From a virus, in the IMG/VR virus record IMGVR_UViG_3300042430_001163, positions 1-64,000 of that record: a DNA stretch of 64,000 nucleotides; one strand, written 5' to 3'. The notes below the pieces were generated by a model. The model ran no database searches and was not told the DNA's origin. It worked only from the letters and a program-made list of their open reading frames with translations. This document shows positions 7,733 through 48,599 of this stretch, piece after piece (position 1 is the first letter of the stretch; every line of letters begins with the position of its first letter). The position numbers and the translations under genes are program-made.

Positions 7733-7969
7733 ATGACAGATTCTGAACTTCATTTACCAATTAGTCCATTCTTAGATAATGCTTCTAATTGGTATCTTAG
7801 TACTCATCGGAATCCTTATGATGATCATTCCGAACTTTATTCTAGATATAAAGTTTGGATGAATGAACAAGGTGTTATATTACGTGACATGGATGAGAAA
7901 GTCAGAACATATCTTTATTTTAAAGACGAACAATCAATGTTGATATTTGCCCTACGTTGGGGAAATTAA
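7733..7969 (+). CDS. ALKW-family small protein (divergent copy)
   Basis: 78 residues ending LIFALRWGN, the C-terminal signature of a family with 19 copies in this window (see the tandem array at 39738-42976). The central Trp-Cys motif of the family is replaced by NWYLSTHRNP. It is followed immediately by a second, weaker family member. Function unknown. Confidence 0.65.
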   Translation: MTDSELHLPISPFLDNASNWYLSTHRNPYDDHSELYSRYKVWMNEQGVILRDMDEKVRTYLYFKDEQSMLIFALRWGN

Positions 7970-10737: not shown

Positions 10738-11295
10738 ATGAGTATTTTAAGAGAACATACAAACGAAAAACATAGAGCGATAGAAAGTCATATATTTGTA
10801 CAAATGATGATGAATGGTGAATTGTCTAAAGAACAACATGCCATGTATTTACAACAAATGTATCATGTTTATCGTGATATTGAATACTATGGTGAAATGG
10901 TTGGATTATTTCATGATATGCGTTCTATTAAAAGAACGGATGCCATTAAAGAAGATATTTATGAACTTGGATATAAAGTATTAACTAGCGATGAAATTTT
11001 TCCTAGTACAAAAGCTTATCGTGAACATATTTTAAATTTGTACTATGGTAAAAAAGGCGATCAGATTTTAGCTCATATTTATGTAAGACATATGGGTGAT
11101 TTATATGGTGGTAAACTTATTGCTAGAAAAGTACCGGGATCAGGAAAGGTTTATCAATTTGAGAATAGTCAAGAATTGATTAATACATTAGATGCAAAAC
11201 TAACTATGAATATTCTTGATGAAGCTTTGTTGGCATTTGATATGAATGGTCATATGTTTGATGATATGTTAAAAAAGGTAAATGAAACAAAATGA
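10738..11295 (+). CDS. ho1: Haem oxygenase
   Basis: Opens haem to biliverdin, CO and Fe2+. 185 residues. The proximal haem ligand fits His12 in LREHTNEKHRAIES, and the distal-helix signature HMGDLYGGKL (GDLYGG about 120-125) is present. It has a Gly-poor, all-helical pattern as expected. It sits 44 nt after the bilin reductase and overlaps the next gene by 4 nt. Possible roles are bilin synthesis with the upstream enzyme, or iron release from host haem for the Fe-S genes further along. Confidence 0.93.
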   Translation: MSILREHTNEKHRAIESHIFVQMMMNGELSKEQHAMYLQQMYHVYRDIEYYGEMVGLFHDMRSIKRTDAIKEDIYELGYKVLTSDEIFPSTKAYREHILNLYYGKKGDQILAHIYVRHMGDLYGGKLIARKVPGSGKVYQFENSQELINTLDAKLTMNILDEALLAFDMNGHMFDDMLKKVNETK

Positions 11296-17093: not shown

Positions 17094-17450
17094 ATGAAAT
17101 TTTTAAAAGAACTTACAGAATGGGCAACCGATATTCCTAATCATACTTATCTAGTAGTAGATAGTAAAGATAAGATGTTGGGATATATTCGTTCGGATTC
17201 TAAGAAATTGGAAATGTTTAAACAACCGCTTCCATTTGATGTTCGGCGTCGCAAATTTAAACAAGTACCAAATACATTTGGTTATGTAGAGCCAAAATTA
17301 GTAAACACTGCTAATAGTTGGCAAGTAAAATCGTCAAGTGGATCAGTATATACTATTGAGAAAAATAACTCTCGTTTGTCATGTACTTGTATGGGTTTCA
17401 AGTTTAAATCCAAGTGTCGGCATGTTGATGAATTTGTGGTGCCGACATAA
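17094..17450 (+). CDS. SWIM zinc-finger protein
   Basis: 118 residues from the ATG at 17094. The C-terminus has the SWIM pattern Cys-x-Cys-x(n)-Cys-x-His in SCTCMGFKFKSKCRHVDEFV, preceded by a beta-strand pair (WQVKSSSGSVYTI). SWIM domains bind nucleic acid or proteins. Its stop overlaps the next start (TAATG), leading into two ALKW-family genes. Confidence 0.8.
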   Translation: MKFLKELTEWATDIPNHTYLVVDSKDKMLGYIRSDSKKLEMFKQPLPFDVRRRKFKQVPNTFGYVEPKLVNTANSWQVKSSSGSVYTIEKNNSRLSCTCMGFKFKSKCRHVDEFVVPT

Positions 17451-17662
17451 TGATATCTTATCCTCATCGTCCGCCCATTGAGAATTGGACTATGATCGGC
17501 ATAGATCGTTGGCCTGTTTACGGTCAGGCCGCCATAGATTGGTGTCACGAACATTTTGATAATCGTGATGGCGAGACTGCCACGTGGCTTTATTATACTC
17601 GTGGACAGTTTGAGTTTGAGCATGAAGAAGACGCGATGTTATTTGCACTGAGATGGGCATGA
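17450..17662 (+). CDS. ALKW-family small protein
   Basis: 70 residues with the family Trp-Cys motif (IDWCHEHFDNRDGE), a WLYYTRGQFEFE strand and the ending AMLFALRWA. Paired with the next gene; both belong to the paralogue family of the 39.7-43 kb array. Function unknown. Confidence 0.75.
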   Translation: MISYPHRPPIENWTMIGIDRWPVYGQAAIDWCHEHFDNRDGETATWLYYTRGQFEFEHEEDAMLFALRWA

Positions 17663-17899
17663 ATGATCACAAATTCTGACATAGACGAACATTACGAATA
17701 TTGTATCTTACTAGAGCCTAAACTATATAAAGAGGCTGTCGAGTGGTGCGAGAAAAAATACGACAAAAGCCAAACCGCCGATCACTGGACTTTGCGGCGA
17801 TGGTATACAAGCGGCTCATGGTACAGCAATTTGTATTACTATCATTTTTATTTTAAAACAAACGAAGATACGTTATTATTTGTACTAAAGTGGTCATAA
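17663..17899 (+). CDS. ALKW-family small protein
   Basis: 78 residues with VEWCEKKYDKS, a Trp/Tyr-rich strand region (WTLRRWYTSGSWY) and the ending TLLFVLKWS. It starts directly after the preceding stop. Function unknown. Confidence 0.75.
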   Translation: MITNSDIDEHYEYCILLEPKLYKEAVEWCEKKYDKSQTADHWTLRRWYTSGSWYSNLYYYHFYFKTNEDTLLFVLKWS

Positions 17900-21904: not shown

Positions 21905-21922
21905 TAATATGATAAATACTGT

Positions 21923-23809: not shown

Positions 23810-25378
23810 TTAGAAAGTTAAACTTAATCCTGGTGTAATCTGAAATGTCCCACTAACTGACAATGTAGTTGTATTAGTGTCAGTCTGATATGGTTGATAA
23901 GTGAATAAATTAGAACCACCATGTAAACTGTCAGCATTGCTATAATCAGTAGACAATCCAGTACTATATAGTGCATCTGAAGTTCCAACATCTAATATTT
24001 CTTGTTTAATTTGAGCAGGAGTATAACTTGGATATTTTTGAGCCATTTGTGCTGCCACACCAGCAACATTTGGACTTGCCATACTAGTACCACTGATACT
24101 CATTATCTTATAACTAGAATTAAATGGATAATTAGTAGTTGCCCCAAATGCATTAGTTGTACTAGTAGTACTAACAATATTTGTTCCGGGTGCCCAAATA
24201 TCTACTCTTGGACCAGATTCACTGGATCCTGATTTTCGTTCTGGACTATCATATGCAGTGCTTACATTACCCACACAAATTACGCCTGGCGCGGATGGAG
24301 GACTACCTCCTTGCATATAATACATTGTACCATTTACTGAACTAGTAAACGTGTTATTGTAATCTAACCCACCGGGAATATCAATAGTTTGATAATAGTT
24401 ACCGGCTGATCCACATAATATTACCCCAGCACTTAGTAGTTCATCAACATCAACATCAACAGTTCCTACTCTGATTCCAAAGTAATTATTTGATCCACCA
24501 ATCATTCCATAGGCAGATTGTTTTGTTGTTCCTGTCCATGAAGTTCCGCGATAGACACCATTGGTAATATTAGTAAATGAATTAACATAACTCCAACTCA
24601 TATTAACTACAGTTGGTCTTTTATATCCAGTAAGTGGATCAATTGGTTTATTTAAATGCCATCCTTTTATAACATCAAATACATCACTAACTGGTAATCC
24701 TTGAGTTCCTCCCCCATTAAGTCCCTCAACCATGACTGAGTATACTCTAGCATTTTTAGCTCGTCCATATGTTAAACCAGCAGCAATTCCTGCACAGTGT
24801 GTTCCATGACCATCAGTATCAGTATAAAAAAGATTATCAGCGGGTTGAGTACCCGCTAATCCACTCTCTGTATACCAATTTATTTTTTGAACTCTAGTTA
24901 CTCCTAATGAGTCATTAAATTCTGGATGATCACACTGTAGACCACTATCTTGAACAACAAAATCAACACCAGTACCATCTAAAATATAATTATAATTCAA
25001 TGTACCGCTGGATCCTGGTGTATTATTAGTAGTACTGTTTAGTCTAAATAATCCCCAATTAATTCCCATGTTATTAACAGGATTTGTTCCTGGAGATTTA
25101 TAATATAATCCAGTCTGAGTTGTACAATGTTTTATTTCTATATCAGTACGTTGATCCGGTGGTATTTCTACACAATATACTCTAGGATCGTTTCTTAATA
25201 AGTCTGCTTCTTCATCTGATAATTCATATGTACAAGTTCGTAAACTCAAGTCACGATTGTTGACAATTTCTACTCTACGACTTGGGACAAAATTATCACC
25301 GCTAGATAGATTTTCAATTTCATTCCAGAATTGATTATAATCAATATCTTTGTTTAAACTTACAGAATATTCTCTCAT
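23810..25378 (-). CDS. Subtilisin-like serine peptidase (S8)
   Basis: 522 residues with the S8 triad: Asp in VVQDSGLQCDHPEF, His in DGHGTHCAGIAAG, Ser in SISGTSMASPNVAG, plus the oxyanion Asn in GSAGN. There is no signal peptide, so it probably acts as a virion or maturation protease, perhaps on the tail fibre encoded just upstream (2 nt gap) or on host surface proteins. Its stop abuts the convergent gene at 23809 with no space for a terminator between them. Confidence 0.9.
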   Translation of the reverse strand: MREYSVSLNKDIDYNQFWNEIENLSSGDNFVPSRRVEIVNNRDLSLRTCTYELSDEEADLLRNDPRVYCVEIPPDQRTDIEIKHCTTQTGLYYKSPGTNPVNNMGINWGLFRLNSTTNNTPGSSGTLNYNYILDGTGVDFVVQDSGLQCDHPEFNDSLGVTRVQKINWYTESGLAGTQPADNLFYTDTDGHGTHCAGIAAGLTYGRAKNARVYSVMVEGLNGGGTQGLPVSDVFDVIKGWHLNKPIDPLTGYKRPTVVNMSWSYVNSFTNITNGVYRGTSWTGTTKQSAYGMIGGSNNYFGIRVGTVDVDVDELLSAGVILCGSAGNYYQTIDIPGGLDYNNTFTSSVNGTMYYMQGGSPPSAPGVICVGNVSTAYDSPERKSGSSESGPRVDIWAPGTNIVSTTSTTNAFGATTNYPFNSSYKIMSISGTSMASPNVAGVAAQMAQKYPSYTPAQIKQEILDVGTSDALYSTGLSTDYSNADSLHGGSNLFTYQPYQTDTNTTTLSVSGTFQITPGLSLTF

Positions 25379-25380
25379 GA

Positions 25381-27747
25381 TTAAATTAAATTAGCCCAAG
25401 CACCGTTTTCATAACCCTGAAATTTGTTAAGATCAGTATCATATAATATGTCACCATTGACGGCAGTTATTGCAGTTTTTTGTATTGTGGTTAATTTTGG
25501 TAGTCTGAATACAGCACCACCAGTAACATTAACTACCGTTGTTCCCTGAAGAGTAATACTAGTAGTAGATACAAATGTTGGTGTTCCAACAGTGTTACTA
25601 ACAATATTACCACTAATATTAACATTACCAGCACTAATATTACCAGTTACATTTAGACTACTTAATGTACCAACTGATGTAATATTAGGTTGAGCATTTG
25701 TAGTTAATGTTCCAGTAAAGAAATTCGCAGTTGCTAAATTTCCAAGACTGGCATTTCCACTGTTGACGTTTCCAACGGCAGTCAACGTTGTTCCACGAAT
25801 ATTACCACTATTAGCATATACATTACCAGCAATTACATCGTTAGTTACTGACAATGATGATAAAGTTCCGACTGATGTAATATTAGGTTGAGCATTTGTG
25901 GTAATAGTACCAGTCAATAATGATGCACCAATTGTACCACTATTAGCATATACATTACCTGCAGTTATATTGTTAGTTACTGATACACTAGATAATGTAC
26001 CAACTGATGTAATATTAGGTTGAGCATTTGTGGTAATAGTACCAATCAATAATGATGCACCAATTGTACCACTATTAGCATATACATTACCAGCAGTTAC
26101 ATCGTTAGTTACCGACAATGATGATAAAGTTCCAACTGATGTGATATTAGGTTGTGATGCAGTTGTTAGTACACCAGAATAATAATTTGCAGTTACTAAA
26201 TTACCTAAACTTGCATTTGATCCATTTACATTTCCGTTTGATTGAATTGTATTTGCAATTACTACATTTGGGACAAGTAAATTACCAGTACTTCCAAAAG
26301 TAAATGTATTAATAGTATTTGAAGTTGAAACAGTTTTAATACGATAAGCGACAGGAATATAAGCCCCACTAGATTGAGGTAATGCAATTACTTGCATCTC
26401 TGTTGACCCAGCAAAACTCCATCCTGAAATAGAATTAATAGTCAATAGTCCATTTCCTGTATATCCTTGATAAGAAACTTTGAAAATGTCATCATCAATC
26501 TCAACTTTATAAACATTCCCGTTATCTGTTCCTCTAGCTCTTGACATAGCCATAGTATACTGTGTGGCTATATTACTATATATATGTTGACTAATTTCTC
26601 CAGGAATTGTTAAGATGCCATCATCGTCTAATCTCAAATTATATTTAAGACCATCATTATCAGTAGAATATATGTTAACTACTGATGGAATATATGAAGA
26701 TCCACTAGAAGCAGATCCATTAGCAATAATATTAATTCCACCGCCAGATTGATATTGGTTATATGAAGTATATCCTGAACTTTGAATATTCAATATTTTA
26801 TCGCTAGTTTGAACAGCGGTGGGTGATACATTAGAACCACGAGATTTTTTCATTGAGATGCCAAATAAATTGGCATCATTTGATGATGTACTAATTGTTA
26901 TTCCGGTATTACTATTAGGAGTAGTAACATTAAGACTACTCACTGATAAATTACTTGGTAAATCAACAGTTATATTTCCACTAGTTGTAATCGGGCTACC
27001 AGTAATTGTAAGAGTATTACTTAATACTCCAACTCTAGTTACTGTACCAGTCCCTCCACCTCCACTACCAGTCGCACTAATAGTAACGGCACCGTTTGAT
27101 TGATTTATAGATACTCCACTACCAGCAACAATACTAGTTACCCCAGTATTAGTTATAGCTATTGTTCCGCTTGTTGTAATTGGACTTCCGCTTACTGATA
27201 AACCTGTCCCACCAGTTACAGAAACACTAGTAACAGTTCCACTACCACTACCATTTGATGCGCTGGTTACTCGTCCATATTGATCCACTACTATATTAGC
27301 ACTAGAATATGACCCTGATACGGATGGACTAATATTGGGTAAATTAACACTAATATTTCCACTACTGATTATTGGACTATTAGTAACTGATAAAGTGCCA
27401 CTAGTAATACCAACACTATTTACTGAGCCACCACCACCATTTCCTGTACCAGTACTATTAATTAGTAATGCACCGTTACTACCTGGTGATCCGCCGAGTG
27501 TCGTAATTGTTACGTTTTGCCCAGCTATTAAACTAGTTACGCCAGTATTGGTAACAACAAATGTTGAAGAATTACTATTACTAATAGCAATCCCATTACC
27601 TGCCACCACTGATTGAACTTGTCCAGCAGTTGTGAATAATTCAGTGAAATTGTTCTGTATAATGTTAAACGCTGTATACAAACTATCTGAGTTTGCTGAG
27701 TCGTTTGGTTGACCAATATTGATTGTTTGTTGACCTGGGATTGTCAT
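25381..27747 (-). CDS. Tail fibre protein with internal repeats
   Basis: 788 residues, extremely rich in Ser/Thr/Asn/Gly/Val. The N-terminus (INIGQPNDSANSDSLYTAFN) matches fibre proteins of aquatic T4-like phages. The middle has VTSVSVTGGTGLSVSGSPI-type repeats, and a 44-residue repeat (TTNAQPNITSVGTLSS) is tandemly copied near 25800-26200. The C-terminus (LPKLTTIQKTAITAVNGDIL, then ENGAWANL) resembles trimerising fibre ends. Likely receptor contact. Expression may be late, from the GATAAATA box in its leader. Confidence 0.85.
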   Translation of the reverse strand: MTIPGQQTINIGQPNDSANSDSLYTAFNIIQNNFTELFTTAGQVQSVVAGNGIAISNSNSSTFVVTNTGVTSLIAGQNVTITTLGGSPGSNGALLINSTGTGNGGGGSVNSVGITSGTLSVTNSPIISSGNISVNLPNISPSVSGSYSSANIVVDQYGRVTSASNGSGSGTVTSVSVTGGTGLSVSGSPITTSGTIAITNTGVTSIVAGSGVSINQSNGAVTISATGSGGGGTGTVTRVGVLSNTLTITGSPITTSGNITVDLPSNLSVSSLNVTTPNSNTGITISTSSNDANLFGISMKKSRGSNVSPTAVQTSDKILNIQSSGYTSYNQYQSGGGINIIANGSASSGSSYIPSVVNIYSTDNDGLKYNLRLDDDGILTIPGEISQHIYSNIATQYTMAMSRARGTDNGNVYKVEIDDDIFKVSYQGYTGNGLLTINSISGWSFAGSTEMQVIALPQSSGAYIPVAYRIKTVSTSNTINTFTFGSTGNLLVPNVVIANTIQSNGNVNGSNASLGNLVTANYYSGVLTTASQPNITSVGTLSSLSVTNDVTAGNVYANSGTIGASLLIGTITTNAQPNITSVGTLSSVSVTNNITAGNVYANSGTIGASLLTGTITTNAQPNITSVGTLSSLSVTNDVIAGNVYANSGNIRGTTLTAVGNVNSGNASLGNLATANFFTGTLTTNAQPNITSVGTLSSLNVTGNISAGNVNISGNIVSNTVGTPTFVSTTSITLQGTTVVNVTGGAVFRLPKLTTIQKTAITAVNGDILYDTDLNKFQGYENGAWANLI
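25805..26200 (-). repeat. 132-bp tandem repeats inside the tail fibre gene
   Basis: CCACTATTAGCATATACATT recurs at 25805, 25937 and 26069, exactly 132 bp (44 codons) apart, with a more diverged copy on each side. The reading frame is kept, so copy number can change by recombination without breaking the gene. Confidence 0.85.
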
Positions 27748-27802: not shown

Positions 27803-28141
27803 TCAATAAGGATTAAATGAACTCCCACAGCCACATGTGGTTTGTGCATTGGGATTAGATATAACAAAATTACTACCCATATCGTCTTCACGATAGTCTA
27901 TAGATGATCCTTGAAGATATTGCATACTGGCACTATCTACTAATAAATTGATATCGTTTGATTTAATTATAAAATCATCATCACTAGTATCTTCATCTAT
28001 TGTGAATCCATATGACATACCACTACATCCACCTCCTTGAACAAATACTCTGAGTTTAGCATTTGAATTATTTTCATCAATTATAATGTCTTTGATACGT
28101 GTGGTGGCTGATTCTGTTATTGTTATCATATTTTTATCCAT
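27803..28141 (-). CDS. erpA: A-type Fe-S carrier, ErpA-like
   Basis: 112 residues. A-type carriers receive Fe-S clusters from scaffolds and pass them to target proteins. The three cysteine ligands are present: Cys39 in GGGCSGMSYGF and Cys103/Cys105 in TTCGCGSSF; the GCGSSF ending is ErpA-like, whereas the second carrier in this window (48270) has the IscA-like GCGESF. It is placed between the tail fibre and IF-1, away from iscU/iscA. A start at the second Met (residue 5) is also possible. Confidence 0.88.
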   Translation of the reverse strand: MDKNMITITESATTRIKDIIIDENNSNAKLRVFVQGGGCSGMSYGFTIDEDTSDDDFIIKSNDINLLVDSASMQYLQGSSIDYREDDMGSNFVISNPNAQTTCGCGSSFNPY

Positions 28142-28165: not shown

Positions 28166-28171
28166 ATGTAT

Positions 28172-28387
28172 TTATCTACGTCTTGTTATTCTACCTCTTG
28201 ATAGATCGTAGGGTGAGAATTCCACCTCAACAATATCTCCCAAGAGTATTTTAATGCCATTCTGACGCATTTTGCCAGAAATAACACCAATTATAAGTTT
28301 TTCATTTGGTAATTTAACTCTAAACATAGCATTTGGAAGTAATTCCATAACTATGCCATCTATCTTAATTCCGTCTTCTTTTGCCAT
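28172..28387 (-). CDS. infA: Translation initiation factor IF-1
   Basis: 71 residues, the exact size of bacterial IF-1, a single OB fold that binds the ribosomal A site. Family landmarks are aligned along the whole length: [59 protein letters not shown]. Very likely of bacterial origin. Together with bS21 and deformylase it points to phage control of translation. Confidence 0.93.
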
Positions 28388-29401: not shown

Positions 29402-29429
29402 ATTATAACACAATGATTAAAAATGTCAA
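29402..29429 (-). promoter_or_regulatory. Sigma70-like promoter, leaderless geometry
   Basis: Minus strand TTGACA at 29429-29424, 16-nt spacer, TATAAT at 29407-29402. Transcription would start about 7 nt further, at or beside the ATG (29395). Confidence 0.7.
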
Positions 29430-30194: not shown

Positions 30195-30222
30195 ATTTTA
30201 ACATAACTGTTAGTAATGTCAA
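30195..30222 (-). promoter_or_regulatory. Sigma70-like promoter
   Basis: Minus strand TTGACA at 30222-30217, 16-nt spacer, TAAAAT at 30200-30195. It shares the upstream sequence CCAAATTTATTGACATT with the promoter at 29402-29429. Confidence 0.65.
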
Positions 30223-30254: not shown

Positions 30255-30575
30255 TTATTTTGTTGATCTTTGTCTTTTTACTTCAGTCACAGTTTCTAGT
30301 ATTGCCAATTTTACTTCTTGATCATGAAGTTTATTATGAATCTCAATAACTGTAGATTCTACTTTATCAAAACGTTCTTCTAATTGATCAGTTTTCATTT
30401 GAATATGTTCCAACATGTTGGTCTGATTATCATGTTGAGATATGGCTTTATTTAATCCTTCAGTAACACCAGCAAACCATTGTTTACCTTGCCACCAAGC
30501 ACCACCTAAACCAAAAACAAAAACTATTATTACCCAATCTTCTTGTATAGTTTTAAGTATTTCTAATAAGTTCAT
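30255..30575 (-). CDS. Membrane-anchored coiled-coil protein
   Basis: 106 residues: one transmembrane segment near residues 14-31 (WVIIVFVFGLGGAWW), then a long coiled coil (about 45-100). ATGA overlap with the upstream gene. The pattern fits small phage membrane accessory proteins, including holin-like or spanin-like proteins, but nothing diagnostic is seen. Confidence 0.7.
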   Translation of the reverse strand: MNLLEILKTIQEDWVIIVFVFGLGGAWWQGKQWFAGVTEGLNKAISQHDNQTNMLEHIQMKTDQLEERFDKVESTVIEIHNKLHDQEVKLAILETVTEVKRQRSTK

Positions 30576-30976
30576 CTTTCATATCCTTTGAAACTTTGTA
30601 TTGGACTGTGAGTATCTACTTCAGACATTTCTTCACTTTTTTTAGTACTAATCAACTTTTTGTCTGAAGATTTAAGACCAACGATATTAAGAGCATAGTC
30701 TATGATATCAGTATCTAAATCATAACCTATAATTATTTCATTTTCACCCCATGCACTAGATGGAGCCATGTTTGCGCCAGGAGAATCTGATAGTCTTTGT
30801 TCTGCACTACGTGCACCGGCAATAGCTACTCCAAATCTATATTGTTTGTAGAAATCACTGTTTGGTAATGCAGGAATTGAATACGTAGATGGTAATGATC
30901 TGGCAACACTACTACTCAATCTATTGTCACTGACTGGCATAGTACTGTCTTCAATTATGAATTCTTTCGCTCTCAT
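30572..30976 (-). CDS. Candidate internal head protein (MRAKEF type)
   Basis: 134 residues. N-terminus MRAKEFIIE-DS fits a T4 capsid-targeting sequence with an I/L-x-E cleavage site. The C-terminus (SPIQSFKGYER) is shared with the neighbour at 30973 (SPVQGFKGYER). The middle includes an Ala/Ser-rich low-complexity part. If the reading is right, it is packaged in the head and cleaved by a gp21-type protease. Function unknown. Confidence 0.6.
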   Translation of the reverse strand: MRAKEFIIEDSTMPVSDNRLSSSVARSLPSTYSIPALPNSDFYKQYRFGVAIAGARSAEQRLSDSPGANMAPSSAWGENEIIIGYDLDTDIIDYALNIVGLKSSDKKLISTKKSEEMSEVDTHSPIQSFKGYER

Positions 30977-31356
30977 CTTTCATATCCTTTGAAACCTTGA
31001 ACTGGACTAACTTTATTTACCTCTTTCATTTCTTCGCTGTTCATGTCACCGCTATTTAAATCTTTATATTGTAATCCGGCAGCTTTATATGCTAATTTAA
31101 GCATATTCTCTTCTTCTTTAGTGTAAGCATGTGCGGTATTGTGTTTGCCAACCCAACTTTCAGCATCCATTTCTATTGGATTTATTCCATCACTACTTGC
31201 AACTGCCATCATTAAACGATTTAAATCATATAGTTTATCGTAAGCGTCTATTTTCTTTGTAAAAATATGTAACCCACGAGTGGCTTGTTGATTTCCGAGA
31301 GAAATTTTGGCAGCCGCTTCGGTTATAGTAGTAGTAACGAATTCTTTTGCTCTCAT
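30973..31356 (-). CDS. Candidate internal head protein (MRAKEF type)
   Basis: 127 residues starting MRAKEFVTTTITE-AAA, a capsid-targeting-like N-terminus with I-T-E before Ala, and ending SPVQGFKGYER like the downstream neighbour. The middle is helical (AYTKEEENMLKLAYKAAGLQ). 4-nt overlap with the next gene. Function unknown. Confidence 0.6.
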   Translation of the reverse strand: MRAKEFVTTTITEAAAKISLGNQQATRGLHIFTKKIDAYDKLYDLNRLMMAVASSDGINPIEMDAESWVGKHNTAHAYTKEEENMLKLAYKAAGLQYKDLNSGDMNSEEMKEVNKVSPVQGFKGYER

Positions 31357-31358
31357 GA

Positions 31359-31568
31359 TTATTTTTCCAATTTACTAATACGTGGTTTAAATAATTTTTG
31401 ATCACCTTTAGTGGTTTTTAACACTGGTTGATTATGATCATCAGTACTGAATCCAGTTACTTCTGTCTTACGATTCTTGAATTTGCCAACTTTAATCTCA
31501 TCACCAACATTAATAGTAGGTGGTGTATATGATTTATCAGAAGATTCAACAATTTCTTTAATATTCAT
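31359..31568 (-). CDS. Small KOW/SH3-like protein, candidate internal protein
   Basis: 69 residues from the ATG at 31568 (TAATG overlap with the upstream stop). MNIKEIVE-SSD is again a short hydrophobic N-terminus ending in I-V-E. The body NVGDEIKVGKFKNRKTEVTG, then QPVLKTTKGDQKLFKPRIS, looks like a small beta-barrel often seen in T4-like phages. Function unknown. Confidence 0.65.
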   Translation of the reverse strand: MNIKEIVESSDKSYTPPTINVGDEIKVGKFKNRKTEVTGFSTDDHNQPVLKTTKGDQKLFKPRISKLEK

Positions 31569-33427
31569 TAACAGTTCCATTTACGTAATGCTAATGCTTT
31601 ACGAGTAGGTTTACCATCTTTTTTCATTGGTCCCTTGACTCCAGACATTCTGGCACAAAAACTCTTACGTCTTTTAGCCGCTTTACTTCCCGGTTTTAAT
31701 TTACTTGGTTTAGTAGTAACTGCAGTTTGTAGTTTACTACCTGGATGTTCACGACGATAACTGTTTACGCCCTTTTGATTTAGACCACCAGTCTTGTTCT
31801 TACCTGATTTTTTCTGCCATGCAGCAACTTCATCTAACTTGTTTAATTCTTCTTGTAACCAATTTGATTCGTTTACTTGTGGATCAATACCTTGTTCTTC
31901 TTGACTTTTTAAATAATCCCATGAAGAAACAATCATACCTTCTACATTAGCGATTTTTTCTTGTACCCATTCTGGTAAATTTTCATTGTCATCAATAGTA
32001 TCTAATAAACCTTCGGCTGCACGTATAATAGTATGTAAATTAGTATGAGCCATACCTGATTCATCATCATACTCAGCGTTATCTTCCATAATTCCAGCTG
32101 AACTAACACCTACTGCAACACTAGCTAATCCAGTTTTAATGGCATCTGACCAACTCATACCATGTAGTTTTGCAGCCAATGTTGGTATTATTGAATTCAT
32201 TGAACCTTGAAGTATCATATTAAATTGTTGTGGTGACAGACCCATGCTACCAAAATGTTTGATAACTGCACCTGATACTATACTACCAACGATTGTTATA
32301 ATAACACCTTGTAGATAGGGATTTTTTGAACCAGCTTTCAACATTGTTAATACTTTGGTACGTTGTTTTCCTGTGGCTTGTGATAATAATTCTTTTGCTT
32401 TAGAATTATAATTCTCAACTTTTCCAGGTTTACTTTGTGACAATTGAGTTTTGTAGAAGTCAGTAATGGCACTAGTGACATTTGATTTAGATTCACTACT
32501 GTCTTCCGCCACACTTTTAGGCTTATTGTGATCTTTTTTCATATTGACTGCAATTGCCGCTTGTTGAGCAGGATTAACTGCCTCACTGAATTGAGTATCA
32601 ATTTGAATTTTATTTTGACGCAAATCTCTACGAAGTGAGTCTAATGATTTTGAGTTGACTTGAAATACAGTTGATTTGTCAGTGACTGCAACGTCCTCTG
32701 CTCCATACTTCTGTAATGATGACTTTAACATTTTTATTTGTTGTGGAGATAACGAGTCGTACATATTGTGATTCAGGCTGAATTCTGCCATCTCGCCAAT
32801 AGATTCCGCCACATCTTGCTGACCTGATAATTCATCAGATTGTTTTAGTGCTTGCTGATATATCAGTTTTGCTTTGATTTCACCAAGAGATTTAAGTTTT
32901 GATTTTACTGCAGAACTAAAATCATTAAGTTTTGGATTTACATTGTTGAGTGACTGATAGTTCATAATCTCTCCAACTAAACGATCCATAAAAGTACCAC
33001 TGGTATCTTTATATGAGTCTTCTGTGACATCTTGCTGACCTTTTTCTTCTATATCAGAATCAGGAACAATTTGTACAGGAATACTTTTTGTACCTAACAA
33101 TTTATAGGCCCAAAATCTGTGATGACCATCTAATACCTGATATCCGTTTTTGTATTTGCGAACCAATAGCGGTGGCAACTTATCACCTTGTTTTAATCCT
33201 GCTACTATTTTTTCAACATTAGCCTTACTTTTTGGTTGAGTCATCTTATCGTCGGGCTCAAAACCAACAAGTTTATTAGCAGATATATTTACTACTGAGC
33301 CAGTTGCTTTATAGTCACCTACTTCTGCACCATACCAGTTAGGATCAGTGATTAGTGTTATTTTTCCTTTCGTCACATCTTGTGTGTCTAAGATAGTACT
33401 TTCTGAGAGAATTTGAGTTATTTTCAT
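31568..33427 (-). CDS. ParB-like N-terminal domain protein, candidate internal/ejected protein
   Basis: 619 residues. The N-terminus MKITQILSE-STI fits a capsid-targeting sequence (L-S-E). Residues about 45-125 carry a ParB/Srx-type domain (KLPPLLVRKYKNGYQVLDGHHRFWAYKLLG). The middle is helical, with a hydrophobic segment (GVIITIVGSIVSGAVI). The C-terminus (KRRKSFCARMSG, then TRKALALRKWNC) is a Cys-containing basic domain seen at the end of other phage proteins. The ParB-like fold can bind CTP or act as a nuclease; activity here is unknown. Likely late gene. Confidence 0.7.
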   Translation of the reverse strand: MKITQILSESTILDTQDVTKGKITLITDPNWYGAEVGDYKATGSVVNISANKLVGFEPDDKMTQPKSKANVEKIVAGLKQGDKLPPLLVRKYKNGYQVLDGHHRFWAYKLLGTKSIPVQIVPDSDIEEKGQQDVTEDSYKDTSGTFMDRLVGEIMNYQSLNNVNPKLNDFSSAVKSKLKSLGEIKAKLIYQQALKQSDELSGQQDVAESIGEMAEFSLNHNMYDSLSPQQIKMLKSSLQKYGAEDVAVTDKSTVFQVNSKSLDSLRRDLRQNKIQIDTQFSEAVNPAQQAAIAVNMKKDHNKPKSVAEDSSESKSNVTSAITDFYKTQLSQSKPGKVENYNSKAKELLSQATGKQRTKVLTMLKAGSKNPYLQGVIITIVGSIVSGAVIKHFGSMGLSPQQFNMILQGSMNSIIPTLAAKLHGMSWSDAIKTGLASVAVGVSSAGIMEDNAEYDDESGMAHTNLHTIIRAAEGLLDTIDDNENLPEWVQEKIANVEGMIVSSWDYLKSQEEQGIDPQVNESNWLQEELNKLDEVAAWQKKSGKNKTGGLNQKGVNSYRREHPGSKLQTAVTTKPSKLKPGSKAAKRRKSFCARMSGVKGPMKKDGKPTRKALALRKWNC

Positions 33428-33449
33428 GTTATGTAACCAATATTACTTG

Positions 33450-33475
33450 TATTTATCAAAATTTAAAAATACAAG
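33450..33475 (-). promoter_or_regulatory. Candidate late promoter GATAAATA within an inverted repeat
   Basis: Minus strand GATAAATA at 33457-33450, about 22 nt before the ATG at 33427. It overlaps the right half of a 9-bp inverted repeat (CTTGTATTT / AAATACAAG; 33475-33467 with 33454-33446). Consensus by analogy with T4 TATAAATA. Confidence 0.5.
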
Positions 33476-34214: not shown

Positions 34215-34511
34215 TTAAAACCACTTTAATGCAAAAGCAATTGATTCAGATTCGTCACGTAAATAAATTCTTGTACGATATTCATCATGTTGCCAACACC
34301 ATCGTGAGTTACTACAACTTACTCCATCAAATAAATCATATTGATCGTAAGCATCTAGTTCTTTACTGGGACCCCAATGAGTCCAACACCATTCACGAAT
34401 ATTACAAAGATCGACTCCATAATTTTTGTCTAGTAATTTAAGTTCTACGTAGAATTTCCACGTTCCATGACCAGTGTTTCTTTTGTCTAATTTTTTTAAT
34501 TTTAACTTCAT
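34215..34511 (-). CDS. ALKW-family small protein, long form
   Basis: 98 residues with the family motifs REWCWTHWGPSKEL and the ending SIAFALKWF, plus extra Cys/Trp residues (SCSNSRWCWQHDE). 1-nt gap from the next family member upstream. Unknown function. Confidence 0.75.
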   Translation of the reverse strand: MKLKLKKLDKRNTGHGTWKFYVELKLLDKNYGVDLCNIREWCWTHWGPSKELDAYDQYDLFDGVSCSNSRWCWQHDEYRTRIYLRDESESIAFALKWF

Positions 34512-34512
34512 A

Positions 34513-34722
34513 TTACATCCATTTTAGATGAAACATTACAAAGTCTTGTTCACTTTGAAATTCAAATTTCCAATAATCTCTAGTATCGCTACAAATTGAA
34601 GTGTCTACAAATGACCATTCTTCAGTACAATAATTATTGCACCAATCAAGAACTGTGGTTAATGATCCATATTCAATATAAATCACAACACTACAATCAT
34701 TCTCCTGAATATTTTGTAACAT
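34513..34722 (-). CDS. ALKW-family small protein
   Basis: 69 residues with LDWCNNYCTEEWSFVD and the ending FVMFHLKWM. The start overlaps the end of the dCMP deaminase gene by 26 nt. Unknown function. Confidence 0.75.
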   Translation of the reverse strand: MLQNIQENDCSVVIYIEYGSLTTVLDWCNNYCTEEWSFVDTSICSDTRDYWKFEFQSEQDFVMFHLKWM

Positions 34723-39737: not shown

Positions 39738-39947
39738 TTATAACCACCGCAAAGCGAATATTGTGGCAATGGCCGAATCTTTAAACAAGAAATATTGATC
39801 TTGATTTTGGGCATGCATACTATACGGCCGAATAAATTCCCAATCTGTACCCGCGTGTTCAAAACACCACCCAAAGATATCATCAAGTTTTTGCAGATTA
39901 TGCCCTCTATATCCTATACTCAACGTACTGACATCAATCTTAGTCAT
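39738..39947 (-). CDS. ALKW-family protein, array copy 13
   Basis: 69 residues from the ATG at 39947 (TAATG with the upstream stop). FGWCFEHAGTDWEFI and the ending TIFALRWL. Last gene of the array in transcription order. Unknown function. Confidence 0.75.
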   Translation of the reverse strand: MTKIDVSTLSIGYRGHNLQKLDDIFGWCFEHAGTDWEFIRPYSMHAQNQDQYFLFKDSAIATIFALRWL

Positions 39948-40201
39948 TATGTCCACTTTAATAAAAAGAATGTTAAATCTGCGGGATTTCTAAAATAATA
40001 CTTACTATGACCATCTATACTAACACACCATCTACTATCTGGAATACTTCTACGTTGGCCAATACCAAATTTTTTTGTACACCAACGATATATGTCTGCA
40101 GTCTCAAGATGATCAATATATTCTAAATGATTTCTTACTCTACGAGCAGTCATCCAAACTGTACCATTACTATGATAATCTTCTCTAACAATAAATTTCA
40201 T
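39947..40201 (-). CDS. ALKW-family protein, array copy 12
   Basis: 84 residues from the ATGA overlap; an ATG two codons earlier gives a Met-Val-Met start and 10-nt overlap. YRWCTKKFGIGQRRS and the ending FFLLKWT. Unknown function. Confidence 0.75.
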   Translation of the reverse strand: MKFIVREDYHSNGTVWMTARRVRNHLEYIDHLETADIYRWCTKKFGIGQRRSIPDSRWCVSIDGHSKYYFRNPADLTFFLLKWT

Positions 40202-40473
40202 GACCATTTCAATATAAATGCCATAACTATTTTTGGATCATAAATTTTTAATGAAAACCCAACCATATCAACAGAATTGATAATACACCATCTATTTAAT
40301 TCATCAAAATTATTATTCCAATATGCTACATCAGTTAAAATTATTGAAGTATAATTGACATCTTCTTCCAAATATTCTTCTGGTACCAAATAGAATTTAT
40401 GTCCTTTCATTTCTGCCAATACATCATAATGATCTTTTAACCAATATTTATGTTGTGAGTCATCCGAATTCAT
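40198..40473 (-). CDS. ALKW-family protein, array copy 11
   Basis: 91 residues, ATGA overlap with the upstream gene. NRWCIINSVDMVGFSLK and the ending MAFILKWS; the N-terminal extension is longer than usual. Unknown function. Confidence 0.75.
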   Translation of the reverse strand: MNSDDSQHKYWLKDHYDVLAEMKGHKFYLVPEEYLEEDVNYTSIILTDVAYWNNNFDELNRWCIINSVDMVGFSLKIYDPKIVMAFILKWS

Positions 40474-40676
40474 ATTATCCACTTTAATGTAAATCTCAAA
40501 GCATCTTTGCTATGAGTAAATTTAAATACTTCATTATCTCCATCAAGATACCATCTTCCACTAATCCATCTATTTCTGGAATCTATAATACATGGTCCAA
40601 AATTGTTAATACACCAATCTTCCATGGCAAATATAATATACATTGGTGTATCATCTGATATTGGAATTTTTGTCAT
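40470..40676 (-). CDS. ALKW-family protein, array copy 10
   Basis: 68 residues. MEDWCINNFGPCIID and the ending RFTLKWII. ATGA overlap. Unknown function. Confidence 0.75.
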   Translation of the reverse strand: MTKIPISDDTPMYIIFAMEDWCINNFGPCIIDSRNRWISGRWYLDGDNEVFKFTHSKDALRFTLKWII

Positions 40677-40927
40677 AACCATTGCAATGCAAATATTAAA
40701 GCTTCTCGTTCACAGAGAAAACTAAAACGATATTCTCCAGTATGTTTATCATTAACATAAACTCCAGAAACTTTAACTGATCTTACTTTTCTCTCGTGAT
40801 AAAGCCAGTTAAATGCCTGATGATATGTACGATGATTTGGAACAGTAATATCTATCCACTTACTTACTCGACAATGAGGAGTATGATAACAAATATCTTC
40901 CCATGTTATTGAGATTGCTTCGCTCAT
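40673..40927 (-). CDS. ALKW-family protein, array copy 9
   Basis: 84 residues. The central motif is changed to FNWLYHERKVRSVKV (no Cys); ending LIFALQWL. ATGA overlap. Unknown function. Confidence 0.75.
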   Translation of the reverse strand: MSEAISITWEDICYHTPHCRVSKWIDITVPNHRTYHQAFNWLYHERKVRSVKVSGVYVNDKHTGEYRFSFLCEREALIFALQWL

Positions 40928-41169
40928 GACCATCTCAATAAAAATAAAAGTGCTGATTTCTCATCTGGTATACTCACAGTAACATGTAAGATCGTTCCGA
41001 CACTATTAGTGCTAGTTCCATGTCCTCGCCATATATAGTTAATATTGTGTTCTTTCAACCAGTCACATACCTGATTCATAAAGAAGTCTGCATTATCATA
41101 CTTACTACCATCTCTGTATACGGTACGATCTGTATCAGGTCTCTGTAACTCACCAACATAATAAGTCAT
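40924..41169 (-). CDS. ALKW-family protein, array copy 8
   Basis: 81 residues. VCDWLKEHNINYIWRGHG in the motif position, ending LLFLLRWS. Starts 1 nt after the upstream stop. Unknown function. Confidence 0.75.
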   Translation of the reverse strand: MTYYVGELQRPDTDRTVYRDGSKYDNADFFMNQVCDWLKEHNINYIWRGHGTSTNSVGTILHVTVSIPDEKSALLFLLRWS

Positions 41170-41170
41170 A

Positions 41171-41383
41171 CTATGCCCACTTTAACATAAAAAGTAATTG
41201 TGTTTCTTCATCTACATGTTCTGTTAACTCAATGATATAAGTATTCATATAAGTATTACAACGAATACACCAACCAATACCATTGATATTACTACCAGAA
41301 TTTGGTAATCTCTCACCTACTTTTTCAATGAGCCAATTTAAAACTTTTGCAGTGTCTTCAACATTTGATTTTTCTATTTTCAT
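41171..41383 (-). CDS. ALKW-family protein, array copy 7
   Basis: 70 residues. LNWLIEKVGERLPNSG and GIGWCIRCNTY, ending LLFMLKWA. ATGA overlap. Unknown function. Confidence 0.75.
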   Translation of the reverse strand: MKIEKSNVEDTAKVLNWLIEKVGERLPNSGSNINGIGWCIRCNTYMNTYIIELTEHVDEETQLLFMLKWA

Positions 41384-41643
41384 GACCATCTCAATGTAAA
41401 TAATAATGCATCTTGTTCATAATCAAATGAGAATTCATATACAGGTGATTTCCACATATCTTCTTCTTTACGCCATAAACATTGCCACGTTCCATCACGT
41501 CCAAATTTCTGTGGACGATCAACAATACTAAATCTCGTACCAAATTTATCATGACACCATGTACACATTCTTTCAATTTGAACGTTGGATTTGCCGTGTA
41601 TTATAACATTATGAGTTAATCGTTCTTTTTTGTCAACTATCAT
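41380..41643 (-). CDS. ALKW-family protein, array copy 6
   Basis: 87 residues. CTWCHDKFGTRFSIVD is close to the family consensus; WQCLWRKEED strand; ending LLFTLRWS. ATGA overlap. Unknown function. Confidence 0.8.
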   Translation of the reverse strand: MIVDKKERLTHNVIIHGKSNVQIERMCTWCHDKFGTRFSIVDRPQKFGRDGTWQCLWRKEEDMWKSPVYEFSFDYEQDALLFTLRWS

Positions 41644-41882
41644 GACCATTTTAGTGCAAACATTAATGCATGTTTTGCATCTTTAAAAGCCCAACGATCA
41701 TATAATGATCTTCTTGAACTTGCCAATATGGGACTATGCAATGCTATAAAATCTTCTTCCCAATTTAATTTTTGACTTTTACAAAGCCAACGCCATTTTT
41801 CCCATTGATCTGATTCAGTTTCAGATATACATTGTACTACATATGGGTACTCTGCCATGACATCTGTAGTATATGGAAACAT
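41640..41882 (-). CDS. ALKW-family protein, array copy 5
   Basis: 80 residues. WRWLCKSQKLNWEEDF in the motif position, RWAFKDAKHALMFALKWS at the end, the best match to the consensus tail. TAATG junction with the upstream gene. Unknown function. Confidence 0.8.
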   Translation of the reverse strand: MFPYTTDVMAEYPYVVQCISETESDQWEKWRWLCKSQKLNWEEDFIALHSPILASSRRSLYDRWAFKDAKHALMFALKWS

Positions 41883-42100
41883 TATAGATACTTAAGAGCA
41901 AACCAACTGGAAATAGATTCTTGATAAAATGTAAATACAACTGATTTTGGAATTTTTATTCCCTCATTATCATAACCATGATCACTGTGAATATAAGTAA
42001 AGTCAAAATCTTTATGACTAACTAATCCACGTTTTTTTAAATCATGAACCATATCAAAAATCTCATTTATATCTTTATCAAATAATTTAATTTCTATCAT
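41882..42100 (-). CDS. ALKW-family protein, array copy 4 (divergent)
   Basis: 72 residues. No Trp-Cys motif; MVHDLKKRGLVSHKDFDF instead, ending SSWFALKYL. ATGA overlap. It keeps size and position but is the most diverged copy in the array. Confidence 0.65.
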   Translation of the reverse strand: MIEIKLFDKDINEIFDMVHDLKKRGLVSHKDFDFTYIHSDHGYDNEGIKIPKSVVFTFYQESISSWFALKYL

Positions 42101-42315
42101 GACCATTTCAACACAAATAATGTAGCATACTCTTCACGAGCAAAGTACCACCAGAAACCAAAATTGTATCCCACATACATACACATCCACGGTCTACTAT
42201 CATCTACTGTATCTCTGAACTCAGCCTGTGGTCCAAACTTTTTTGTGCACCACTTCATTCGTTTATTAAGTTCCTCAAGTGGCATATCTTCAGTTTTTAT
42301 TTCCGCTGCAATCAT
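42097..42315 (-). CDS. ALKW-family protein, array copy 3
   Basis: 72 residues. MKWCTKKFGPQAEFRD is near consensus; PWMCMYVGYNFGFWWYF strand region; ending TLFVLKWS. ATGA overlap. Unknown function. Confidence 0.8.
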   Translation of the reverse strand: MIAAEIKTEDMPLEELNKRMKWCTKKFGPQAEFRDTVDDSRPWMCMYVGYNFGFWWYFAREEYATLFVLKWS

Positions 42316-42722
42316 GACCACTTCAATGCCATTACTGTAAATAACTCATTACTAATAACATATCTCCATCCAGCATATACATCATCAACAGGCTTCCAAA
42401 GTGAAATGTCTTGTTCCTCAATCCATAAGTTAACTGCATAGGATACCTCTACTACACAATAATCATTAGGAACATGAACATCTTCATCGTAATCATCAGT
42501 TGAAAGAAGTTTAAAGTTTTTAGGATTTTCGTATCTTGTACGCATTGTAAATATCTGACCTGTTGGTGCTGTCATAGGCTGTACATCTACAATTTGACTG
42601 GCAATCATACTAGACAAGGATTTTCGTAATATAGGCAAAATAATCGCGACAAAACTTCCATACTTCTTTGTCATCTTTCGTAATGATAGCCGCCTAGATA
42701 GTCTTCGTTGATGACTATTCAT
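42312..42722 (-). CDS. ALKW-family protein fused to a capsid-protein-like segment, array copy 2
   Basis: 136 residues. The C-terminal half is family-like (VNLWIEEQDISLWK, WRYVISNEL, MALKWS). The N-terminal part (RRLSRRLSLRKMTKKYGSF, then IASQIVDVQPMTAPTGQIF and MRTRYE) resembles the VQPM-x-x-PTG-x-IF-x-x-R segment of T4-like major capsid protein gp23. It looks like a chimera of a capsid fragment and a family domain. Alternative: an independent small phage family with a similar motif. Confidence 0.65.
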   Translation of the reverse strand: MNSHQRRLSRRLSLRKMTKKYGSFVAIILPILRKSLSSMIASQIVDVQPMTAPTGQIFTMRTRYENPKNFKLLSTDDYDEDVHVPNDYCVVEVSYAVNLWIEEQDISLWKPVDDVYAGWRYVISNELFTVMALKWS

Positions 42723-42976
42723 GACCAACGCATTGAAAACAACAATGCTGCCTGTTCTGTTTCAAACCAGATTTTTGTACCAGTCCAAACATAATGTGGA
42801 TCATCAACTAACTCTCTACACCATTTATGTATTTCAACATAATTCTGATTTAACTTCAAAGCATCAAATTCAACTGGATAATATTTTTGTTCTGCCAATA
42901 AACCATTCCAATCAATAGTCTTTGGCGTACTATCAAGTATAATACTATCTAAAAATTCTCTTATTGAAAGTTTCAT
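42719..42976 (-). CDS. ALKW-family protein, array copy 1
   Basis: 85 residues from the ATG at 42976 (ATGA overlap with the DUF3307 gene). IHKWCRELVDDPHYVWTG and the ending LLFSMRWS. First array gene in transcription order; no promoter between it and the upstream genes. Unknown function. Confidence 0.75.
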   Translation of the reverse strand: MKLSIREFLDSIILDSTPKTIDWNGLLAEQKYYPVEFDALKLNQNYVEIHKWCRELVDDPHYVWTGTKIWFETEQAALLFSMRWS

Positions 42977-48269: not shown

Positions 48270-48599
48270 TTAAACTGTAAAAGATTCACCGCAACCACAA
48301 CGTGCAGATTCTTTTGGATTGATAAAGTCAAAACCTTCATTCAATCCCTTCTTCACATAATCAATTTCAATACCATCAATGTATGTTAAATCTTTCTGTG
48401 TGACCCAAACTTTTGCGCCACTTCCGATATCGTACTCTACCCAATCCCATGTACAGGGAACTTGATCTACATATTCAAGTACATATGCAAGACCACTACA
48501 TCCAGTTGTCTTGACACCTACTTTGATGCCCTGTCCACTACCACGTTTGGCAATGTTACTAACTATTTTGGCTGCTGCACGTTCTGTCACTGTAATCAT
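48270..48599 (-). CDS. iscA: A-type Fe-S carrier, IscA-like
   Basis: 109 residues. Cys34 in TTGCSGLAYVLEYV and Cys101/Cys103 in ARCGCGESFTV, the IscA pattern with GESF ending, close to E. coli IscA spacing. ATGA overlap with the deformylase gene. With iscU, it gives the phage two steps of Fe-S assembly; no IscS or HscA/B seen. Confidence 0.93.
   Translation of the reverse strand: MITVTERAAAKIVSNIAKRGSGQGIKVGVKTTGCSGLAYVLEYVDQVPCTWDWVEYDIGSGAKVWVTQKDLTYIDGIEIDYVKKGLNEGFDFINPKESARCGCGESFTV

Follow-up and report, generated by a model that had tools for sequence, protein, structure and literature searches.

Putative capsid-targeting tags and cut-site-like joints in a cluster of candidate internal head proteins from a T4-superfamily phage fragment

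Introduction

In bacteriophage T4, the first 10 residues of the internal protein IPIII suffice for packaging, with residues 4 and 7 important for targeting and residues 8 and 10 for processing, and the head protease gp21 cuts after L/I-x-E, as set out in the relevant parts of PMC9026906. The T4 proteins Ip1-3 are described in part of PMC12373910 as injected inhibitors of GmrSD enzymes that have only a leader in common. Here we analyse a 64,000-base stretch of viral DNA (the window; bases 1-64000 of the 71,497-base IMG/VR virus record IMGVR_UViG_3300042430_001163), in which four neighbouring genes at 30572-33427 encode proteins that begin with similar short peptides (tags), one of them a modular protein of 619 amino acids (aa).

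Two further described systems come close. Polyvalent proteins are the nearest concept to the modular proteins found here: the portion of Iyer et al. 2017 (PMC5512222) dealing with them predicts that they are injected and processed, proposes embedded zincin or assemblin-like peptidases, and states that Alt-family ADP-ribosyltransferases (ARTs) are absent from genuine polyvalents. The proteins analysed here share with those described there the presence of disparate effector-like domains (ParB, ART, kinase and GNAT types) in phage chains, and differ in that no peptidase was detected in the proteins scanned and that the predicted processor is a separate head protease acting at joints. In SPN3US and phiKZ, according to the corresponding parts of PMC5694885, a head protease likewise processes ejected proteins and makes several cuts within propeptides; those propeptides are longer, the specificity is A/S-x-E and the extra cuts lie, as far as that account describes them, in the propeptides and not between effector domains.

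The DNA polymerase of the record has its closest matches in jumbo T4-superfamily phages, with 43-50% identity (Sinorhizobium phage Phosso, Agrobacterium phage Atu_ph07), and the record is a fragment. The relatives' loci compared below are also nearly all metagenomic fragments. We propose that the four genes form a late operon of head-internal proteins whose tags would be cut off by gp21 and whose modular payload would be diced at its joints, a model that we consider probable as a whole.

Results

The original prediction for this DNA named the four genes and read their N-termini as T4-type capsid-targeting sequences (CTSs). All four open reading frames (ORFs) are present with the N-termini quoted there; they lie on the minus strand and are closely spaced or overlapping. 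The genes and their putative CTSs are as follows, with a slash at the expected cut:

30572-30976, minus strand: 134-aa protein, CTS MRAKEFIIE/D; matched in 134 loci; 4-nt overlap with neighbours
30973-31356, minus strand: 127-aa protein, CTS MRAKEFVTTTITE/A, conserved C-terminal ...FKGYER; matched in 86 loci, the window's own included
31359-31568, minus strand: 69-aa protein, CTS MNIKEIVE/S; from the ORF and comparison with homologues
31568-33427, minus strand: 619-aa modular protein with CTS, ParB-like cassette, unknown modules and DUF6321; from the ORF and profile matches
33401-33427, minus strand: CTS MKITQILSE of the 619-aa protein, cut predicted from sequence after Glu9, before Ser

For the gene at 31359, MNIKEIVE begins at an internal ATG and matches the MNINEIIQE of a relative; the longest ORF begins earlier (MELLMNIKEIVE...).

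We compared these tags with the T4 N-termini in AF158101. There, IPII and IPIII start MKTYQEFIAE/A, IPI MKTFKEFTSTTTPVSTITE/A, Alt MELITELFDE/D, gp24 MAKINELLRE/S and gp22 MLKEQLIAE/A, and gp23 contains ...FLTE/A, the cuts in these T4 sequences being placed by the x-x-E rule. The window tags (8, 9, 9 and 13 residues, with Ile or Leu at P3 in each) resemble the T4 CTSs minus one residue. The long tag of the 127-aa gene parallels that of IPI, TTT stretch included, and like it keeps I-x-E before Ala despite an insertion. As in IPI-IPIII and Alt of T4 (Straboviridae), where the tag measures 10-20 residues, an N-terminal tag of very similar letters, ending in [IL]-x-E in front of a small or polar residue, precedes unrelated bodies. 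In contrast to T4, the tag is found on more families, is mostly one residue shorter, often has Val at P3 in relatives, and also occurs on modular proteins of very large size whose internal sites are repeated.

A loose rule for the tag ([ILV]xE ending at residues 7-16) was uninformative, with 18 of 135 window ORFs against 30 of 347 internal-Met controls. A strict form, M[RK]xx[EDQ][FILVM]..E, fits only two of the four window genes, the tag of the 69-aa gene being one residue short of it. In loci fetched with two window proteins as queries, it is found at 191 of 2197 N-termini compared to 6 of 9133 internal Met, a count that is inflated because some loci were retrieved with a tagged query. Start codons were picked by simple rules for these counts, as well as for those of tags on joint-bearing ORFs and of promoter distances given below. 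A scan of the collection for MRAKEF[IVM]xE, which is free of the query bias, gave at least 120 stretches versus 5 with permuted codons, and two back-translated tag patterns occurred in 16 of 22 relatives (30 + 14 sites) versus none for the reversed-pattern control.

With the first 15 residues removed, the bodies of 120 distinct MRAKEF-tagged products fall into 21 clusters, the largest of which holds 81 products, mainly of the 127- and 134-aa families. An earlier single-linkage clustering was dropped from the counts, shared modules having merged most tagged proteins into one cluster. The codons of the MRAKEF tag vary (Arg AGA 94, CGA 18; Ala GCA 75, GCC 22, GCT 21; Phe TTT 97, TTC 23), which argues for selection on the peptide. 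Tags are also swapped between homologues: the 69-aa body stands behind MNINEIIQE, MKIKDIITE, MRAIEFINE, MKSWEFITE and MRAIEFITE, and opens proteins of 206-724 aa as their N-terminal domain. Tagged proteins in relatives include an ADP-ribosyltransferase (9.5e-13), the class to which T4 Alt belongs, as well as two kinases resembling gp0.7 of T7, an amidoligase-like protein and a protein that combines LysM with GH19. Locus L002 adds, beyond the window, two candidates, MKIHELLYE/V and a kinase-like protein that starts MKITELVG, lacking the Glu.

The gp21-type protease (S77) and gp23 were searched for in 39 records, 33 relatives and 6 controls. An S77 gene scores above the cut-off in 13 of the 13 records with a full gp23. 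In G002, gp23 is represented by its end alone, at the edge of the contig, and S77 is absent; G010 gives a weak match to S77 and lacks gp23. The remaining searched records, which are fragments or controls, have neither. At the T4 cut position, L-x-E/[SNAT] is present in all 10 relatives' gp23s read. The gp21 homologue and the capsid-protein cut site that the original prediction named among its checks are found in relatives. The T4-like reading of the N-termini is supported at the sequence level by the likeness to T4 CTSs, the unrelated bodies, the swapped tags, S77 and the gp23 site in relatives, the tagged ART, kinase and GH19/LysM proteins and the late-promoter-like element described below. 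We predict with high confidence that the tag drives packaging, and with good confidence that gp21 removes it.

The T4 late promoter is TATAAATA. This consensus was rejected as the late promoter of the window, where it is rarer than chance (5 copies versus 13.7 expected), and the variant GATAAATAC was adopted instead:

33449-33457, minus strand: late-promoter-like motif GATAAATAC, 30 nt ahead of the 619-aa gene's ATG; in L003, a 120-kb relative, the upstream sequence is conserved

The window holds three copies of GATAAATAC. Of 81 copies in the fetched loci, 57 are located 9-60 nt upstream of a called start, with a peak at 30-32 nt. When the word was scrambled, six of seven versions yielded 0-1 such sites; the remaining one, CATAAATAG, retains the ATAAATA core and has 3 of its 8 copies before starts. 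Judged from this placement, GATAAATAC probably acts as late promoter in this group of phages. The other two window copies (28168-28176, minus strand; 21911-21919, plus strand) each stand directly before a gene on the same strand. Extended sigma-70-type promoters, full or near-full (12 and 11 of 12), were observed at 29402-29429 and 30195-30222 (minus strand) before genes just downstream of the cluster, which suggests from sequence that those genes are early.

The original prediction had described the 619-aa product as ParB-like, and this is borne out by ParB_N at residues 67-123 (E 6e-5, below the Pfam cut-off) and by a PHROG ParB family (4e-11). It did not mention DUF6321, the modular architecture, the internal cut-like sites or the conservation of the joints as DNA. 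The protein contains:

33044-33364, minus strand: ParB-like cassette, residues 22-128; 15 distinct contexts, mostly with joints on both sides
33020-33028, minus strand: joint QQD-VTE/D, residues 134-136; internal cut site predicted from sequence
32804-32812, minus strand: joint QQD-VAE/S, residues 206-208; internal cut site predicted from sequence
32504-32512, minus strand: joint KS-VAE/D, residues 306-308; right-hand breakpoint of the L003 cassette swap, from DNA comparison
32084-32092, minus strand: [ILV]xE site IME/D, residues 446-448; motif only
31868-31876, minus strand: [ILV]xE site VNE/S, residues 518-520, shortly before the DUF6321 module; motif only
31577-31804, minus strand: DUF6321 module, basic, residues 542-617; Pfam E 1e-19

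In large tagged proteins, sites such as KQGVAEG recur between domains, and at many borders the joint encodes (K/Q)QGVAEG; the window's own joints are degenerate forms of it (QQDVTED, QQDVAES, KSVAEDS). Disparate domains share one chain, as DUF6321 and a deaminase do in L053, and ParB_N and DUF6886, both just below the cut-off, in L010. Searches found no peptidase domain in the 619-aa protein (Pfam, PHROG) or in 20 relatives' proteins (Pfam). The theme extends to marine phages: AG-345-E15 has a DUF6321 protein starting MKTFEQFTE/G, podovirus P-SCSP2 has a short one with no tag, and in P-TIM68 and ACG-2014f the DUF6321 proteins lack a clear tag at the start. DUF6321 alone is therefore no marker, because marine DUF6321 proteins occur without a clear tag. 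In the open-access library searched, we found no paper on the tagged modular arrangement, and none at all for DUF6321 or for the letters of the tag or joint.

To place cut-like sites relative to domain borders, we took the internal starts and ends of local homology in 1258 non-redundant ORFs out of 1504, each of at least 200 codons. The motif [ILV]-x-E-[GSADN] stands beside 491 of 1351 homology starts, against 243 expected, and beside 508 of 1348 ends, against 234 expected. At the level of motif, [ILV]-x-E at domain borders is the gp21 signature.

The joint is also conserved as DNA. A scan for its five codons, with all silent changes allowed, gave at least 120 stretches versus 10 for the reversed order, and 139 of 140 joint sites in distinct contexts lie in one frame of the longest ORF. 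The exact CAA GGT GTG GCG GAA is used in 107 of these 140 sites; in joint-bearing ORFs, GCG makes up 0.11 of Ala codons and GTG 0.24 of Val codons. Conservation ends about two bases before the CAA and 17 bases after it; the joint measures ~20 bp. An origin of the joint in hosts was considered and dropped: a bacterial and archaeal genome collection gave 12 scattered stretches, versus at least 120 in viral contigs, where the pattern used was looser.

Exchange at joints can be followed in individual loci. L223 stops right at the joint, while L011, with the same left neighbour, runs on into the ParB cassette. Between the window and L003, DNA homology covers 33459-33366 (promoter, tag and on through residue 21) at 91-93% identity, is not found down to 32518, and resumes at 32517 (residue ~304; joint at 306-308), again at 91-93% identity. 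Judged from this alignment, the difference is a natural cassette swap with both breakpoints at joints. Short conserved boundary or linker DNA at module borders may promote exchange in the mosaic lambdoid phages; unlike those boundary sequences, the joint here is intragenic, in frame and between protein domains.

Discussion

The strongest alternative accepts T4-like packaging and holds that the joints stay uncut, so that intact polyvalent proteins are packaged and the joint is a recombination linker in which V-A-E is incidental. We regard it as possible, and on the doubtful side. The conservation of the joint at silent positions, the sharp limits of that conservation, the cassette swap at joints and the Val at P3 all agree with a linker. 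However, the border enrichment persists when QG/QD joints are left out (361 versus 196 at starts, 385 versus 191 at ends, 1.8-2.0-fold), and it is confined to Glu at P1, since replacing the Glu by D, K, Q, N, S, T, R, A, G or L gives 0.5-1.2-fold at borders; at P3, only I/L/V are strong in numbers. Recombination needs neither residue. The joint may be under two selections at once, for homology in exchange and for a protease cut site.

It is unlikely that, instead of being a CTS, the N-terminal peptide serves for docking to a different assembly, such as a replication compartment or the tail, although a peptide so short could do so. The likeness to the CTSs of T4 internal proteins extends to the position of I/L-x-E, the site is kept in the 127-aa gene despite the insertion, and a late-promoter-like element precedes the cluster. 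That common descent or start-codon context alone accounts for the shared N-termini is very improbable, since, although the 127- and 134-aa families look related and supply the bulk of the matches, the same tag is found on 20 further clusters, homologous 69-aa bodies stand behind different tags, varying tag codons contradict identity at the codon level, residues right after the tag are variable, and homology between all bodies was not found.

The proposed model, a late operon of internal head proteins in a jumbo T4-superfamily phage, would run as follows. A CTS of 8-13 residues on each product would bind the prohead core, and gp21 (S77) would remove it after [ILV]-x-E. The mature proteins would remain with the DNA and pass into the next host; injection is proposed because of the T4 precedent. 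In the 619-aa class, effector-like domains (ParB-like, ART-like, deaminase, DUF6321 and others) would be strung together with [ILV]-x-E at the joints, and the same protease would dice these chains into separate cargo inside the head, a step for which we see an even chance. Recombination would exchange cassettes at many joints through the ~20 bp of conserved in-frame DNA. The fuller proposal, of CTS-tagged polyproteins with protease-separated cassettes, one trans-acting protease for maturing the shell as well as dicing the cargo, and a joint that doubles as a dedicated ~20-bp DNA sequence for the in-frame gain, loss and exchange of effector cassettes, is more tentative and falls a little short of even.

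The observations behind the model are the T4 likeness, unrelated bodies, tag swapping, the protease and gp23 site in relatives, the promoter-like element, the domain borders, the joint DNA and one swap. From these sequence data we infer packaging, tag cutting, joint cutting, injection, effector function and the mechanism of recombination.

Several observations weigh against the model. S77 was not found in the 71-kb source record, a fragment, and neither S77 nor gp23 in the closest relative, G012, whose record is also a fragment. The tag patterns are present in none of eight control records, a weak comparison as these controls total about 0.36 Mb. Among 82 joint-bearing ORFs with a complete 5' end, only 20 have the strict tag; many of the others appear to have a looser I/L/F-x-E start. 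Enrichment at borders, 1.4-2.3-fold with small counts, is also seen for P-x-E and [ST]-x-E. Recombination alone could explain the DNA-level conservation of the joint, and its commonest P3 residue is Val, whereas T4 sites are L/I-x-E and the relatives' gp23 has Leu, so that the joint could stay uncut. Finally, NATAAATA is not commoner before tagged genes (15 of 182) than before others (227 of 1853), which we conjecture is expected if most tagged genes lie downstream in operons.

If the model is true, the tag would be a simple rule for listing the proteins, mostly of unknown function, that uncultured jumbo T4-like phages inject, and the joints would predict their processed pieces. The one-tag-one-protein scheme of T4 would then extend to processed multi-effector payloads, polyvalent proteins would gain a trans-acting processor, and short tags and joints could be used for loading cargo into laboratory phage heads.

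Further observations

The original prediction also noted a common ending of two small proteins, which we confirm as ...SP[IV]Q[SG]FKGYER in both. The 127- and 134-aa families are apparently related by sequence; in the former, tag, body and C-terminus are conserved, with a variable segment right behind the tag. Pfam, PHROGs and PADLOC gave no family for any of the three small window proteins, and the 127-aa protein, the 134-aa protein and the modular relative L009 had no match among 50,697 phage records. AlphaFold models were poor for the 127-aa family (pLDDT 49) and fair for the 134-aa family (pLDDT 69, with the tag and residues 62-75 poorly predicted), and Foldseek with the latter retrieved nothing at E below 2 from PDB or BFVD; for these reasons we claim no fold for either family. 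A second shared C-terminal peptide, SP[VI]xxFKGY[KPE][RK] or SPVAKPK[RK]N[KR]YGV, is seen in both families (window 30572-31356 and homologues). In T4 Alt, the C-terminus is processed too, as stated in part of PMC9026906.

Arrays of short, very diverse ORFs are present in the window at 39738-42728 and 34215-34722 (minus strand) and at 17450-17899 and 7733-7969 (plus strand), and also in L202 and L203. They encode 69-138 aa in the window, often start MVM across the previous stop and end in x-L-[RK]-W-x. This ending occurs 15 times in the window and in 37 of 2197 proteins of the fetched loci, with 0 for the reversed control at N-termini, and the ORFs seem to make up a large family whose C-terminal peptide is conserved. 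Two members, L202:812-1138 and L203:997-1395, contain a stretch resembling mature gp23 (IPMIRKILPKLIAQDIVGVQPMD; gp23 VILPVIRRVMPTVIANELVGVQPMT) that is matched by the Gp23 profile and would represent a piece of capsid protein inside a small accessory protein.

The 788-aa product at 25381-27747, with no significant family match in a Pfam and PHROG scan, adjoins a subtilase-family protein (23810-25378, minus strand; Pfam S8, 1.3e-31). Some genes appear host-like when their translations are judged by eye, namely a heme-oxygenase-like gene (window 10738-11295, plus strand), a Burkholderiales-type porin (L002:3071-4219, minus strand) and IscA-like proteins (window 27803-28141 and 48270-48599, minus strand).

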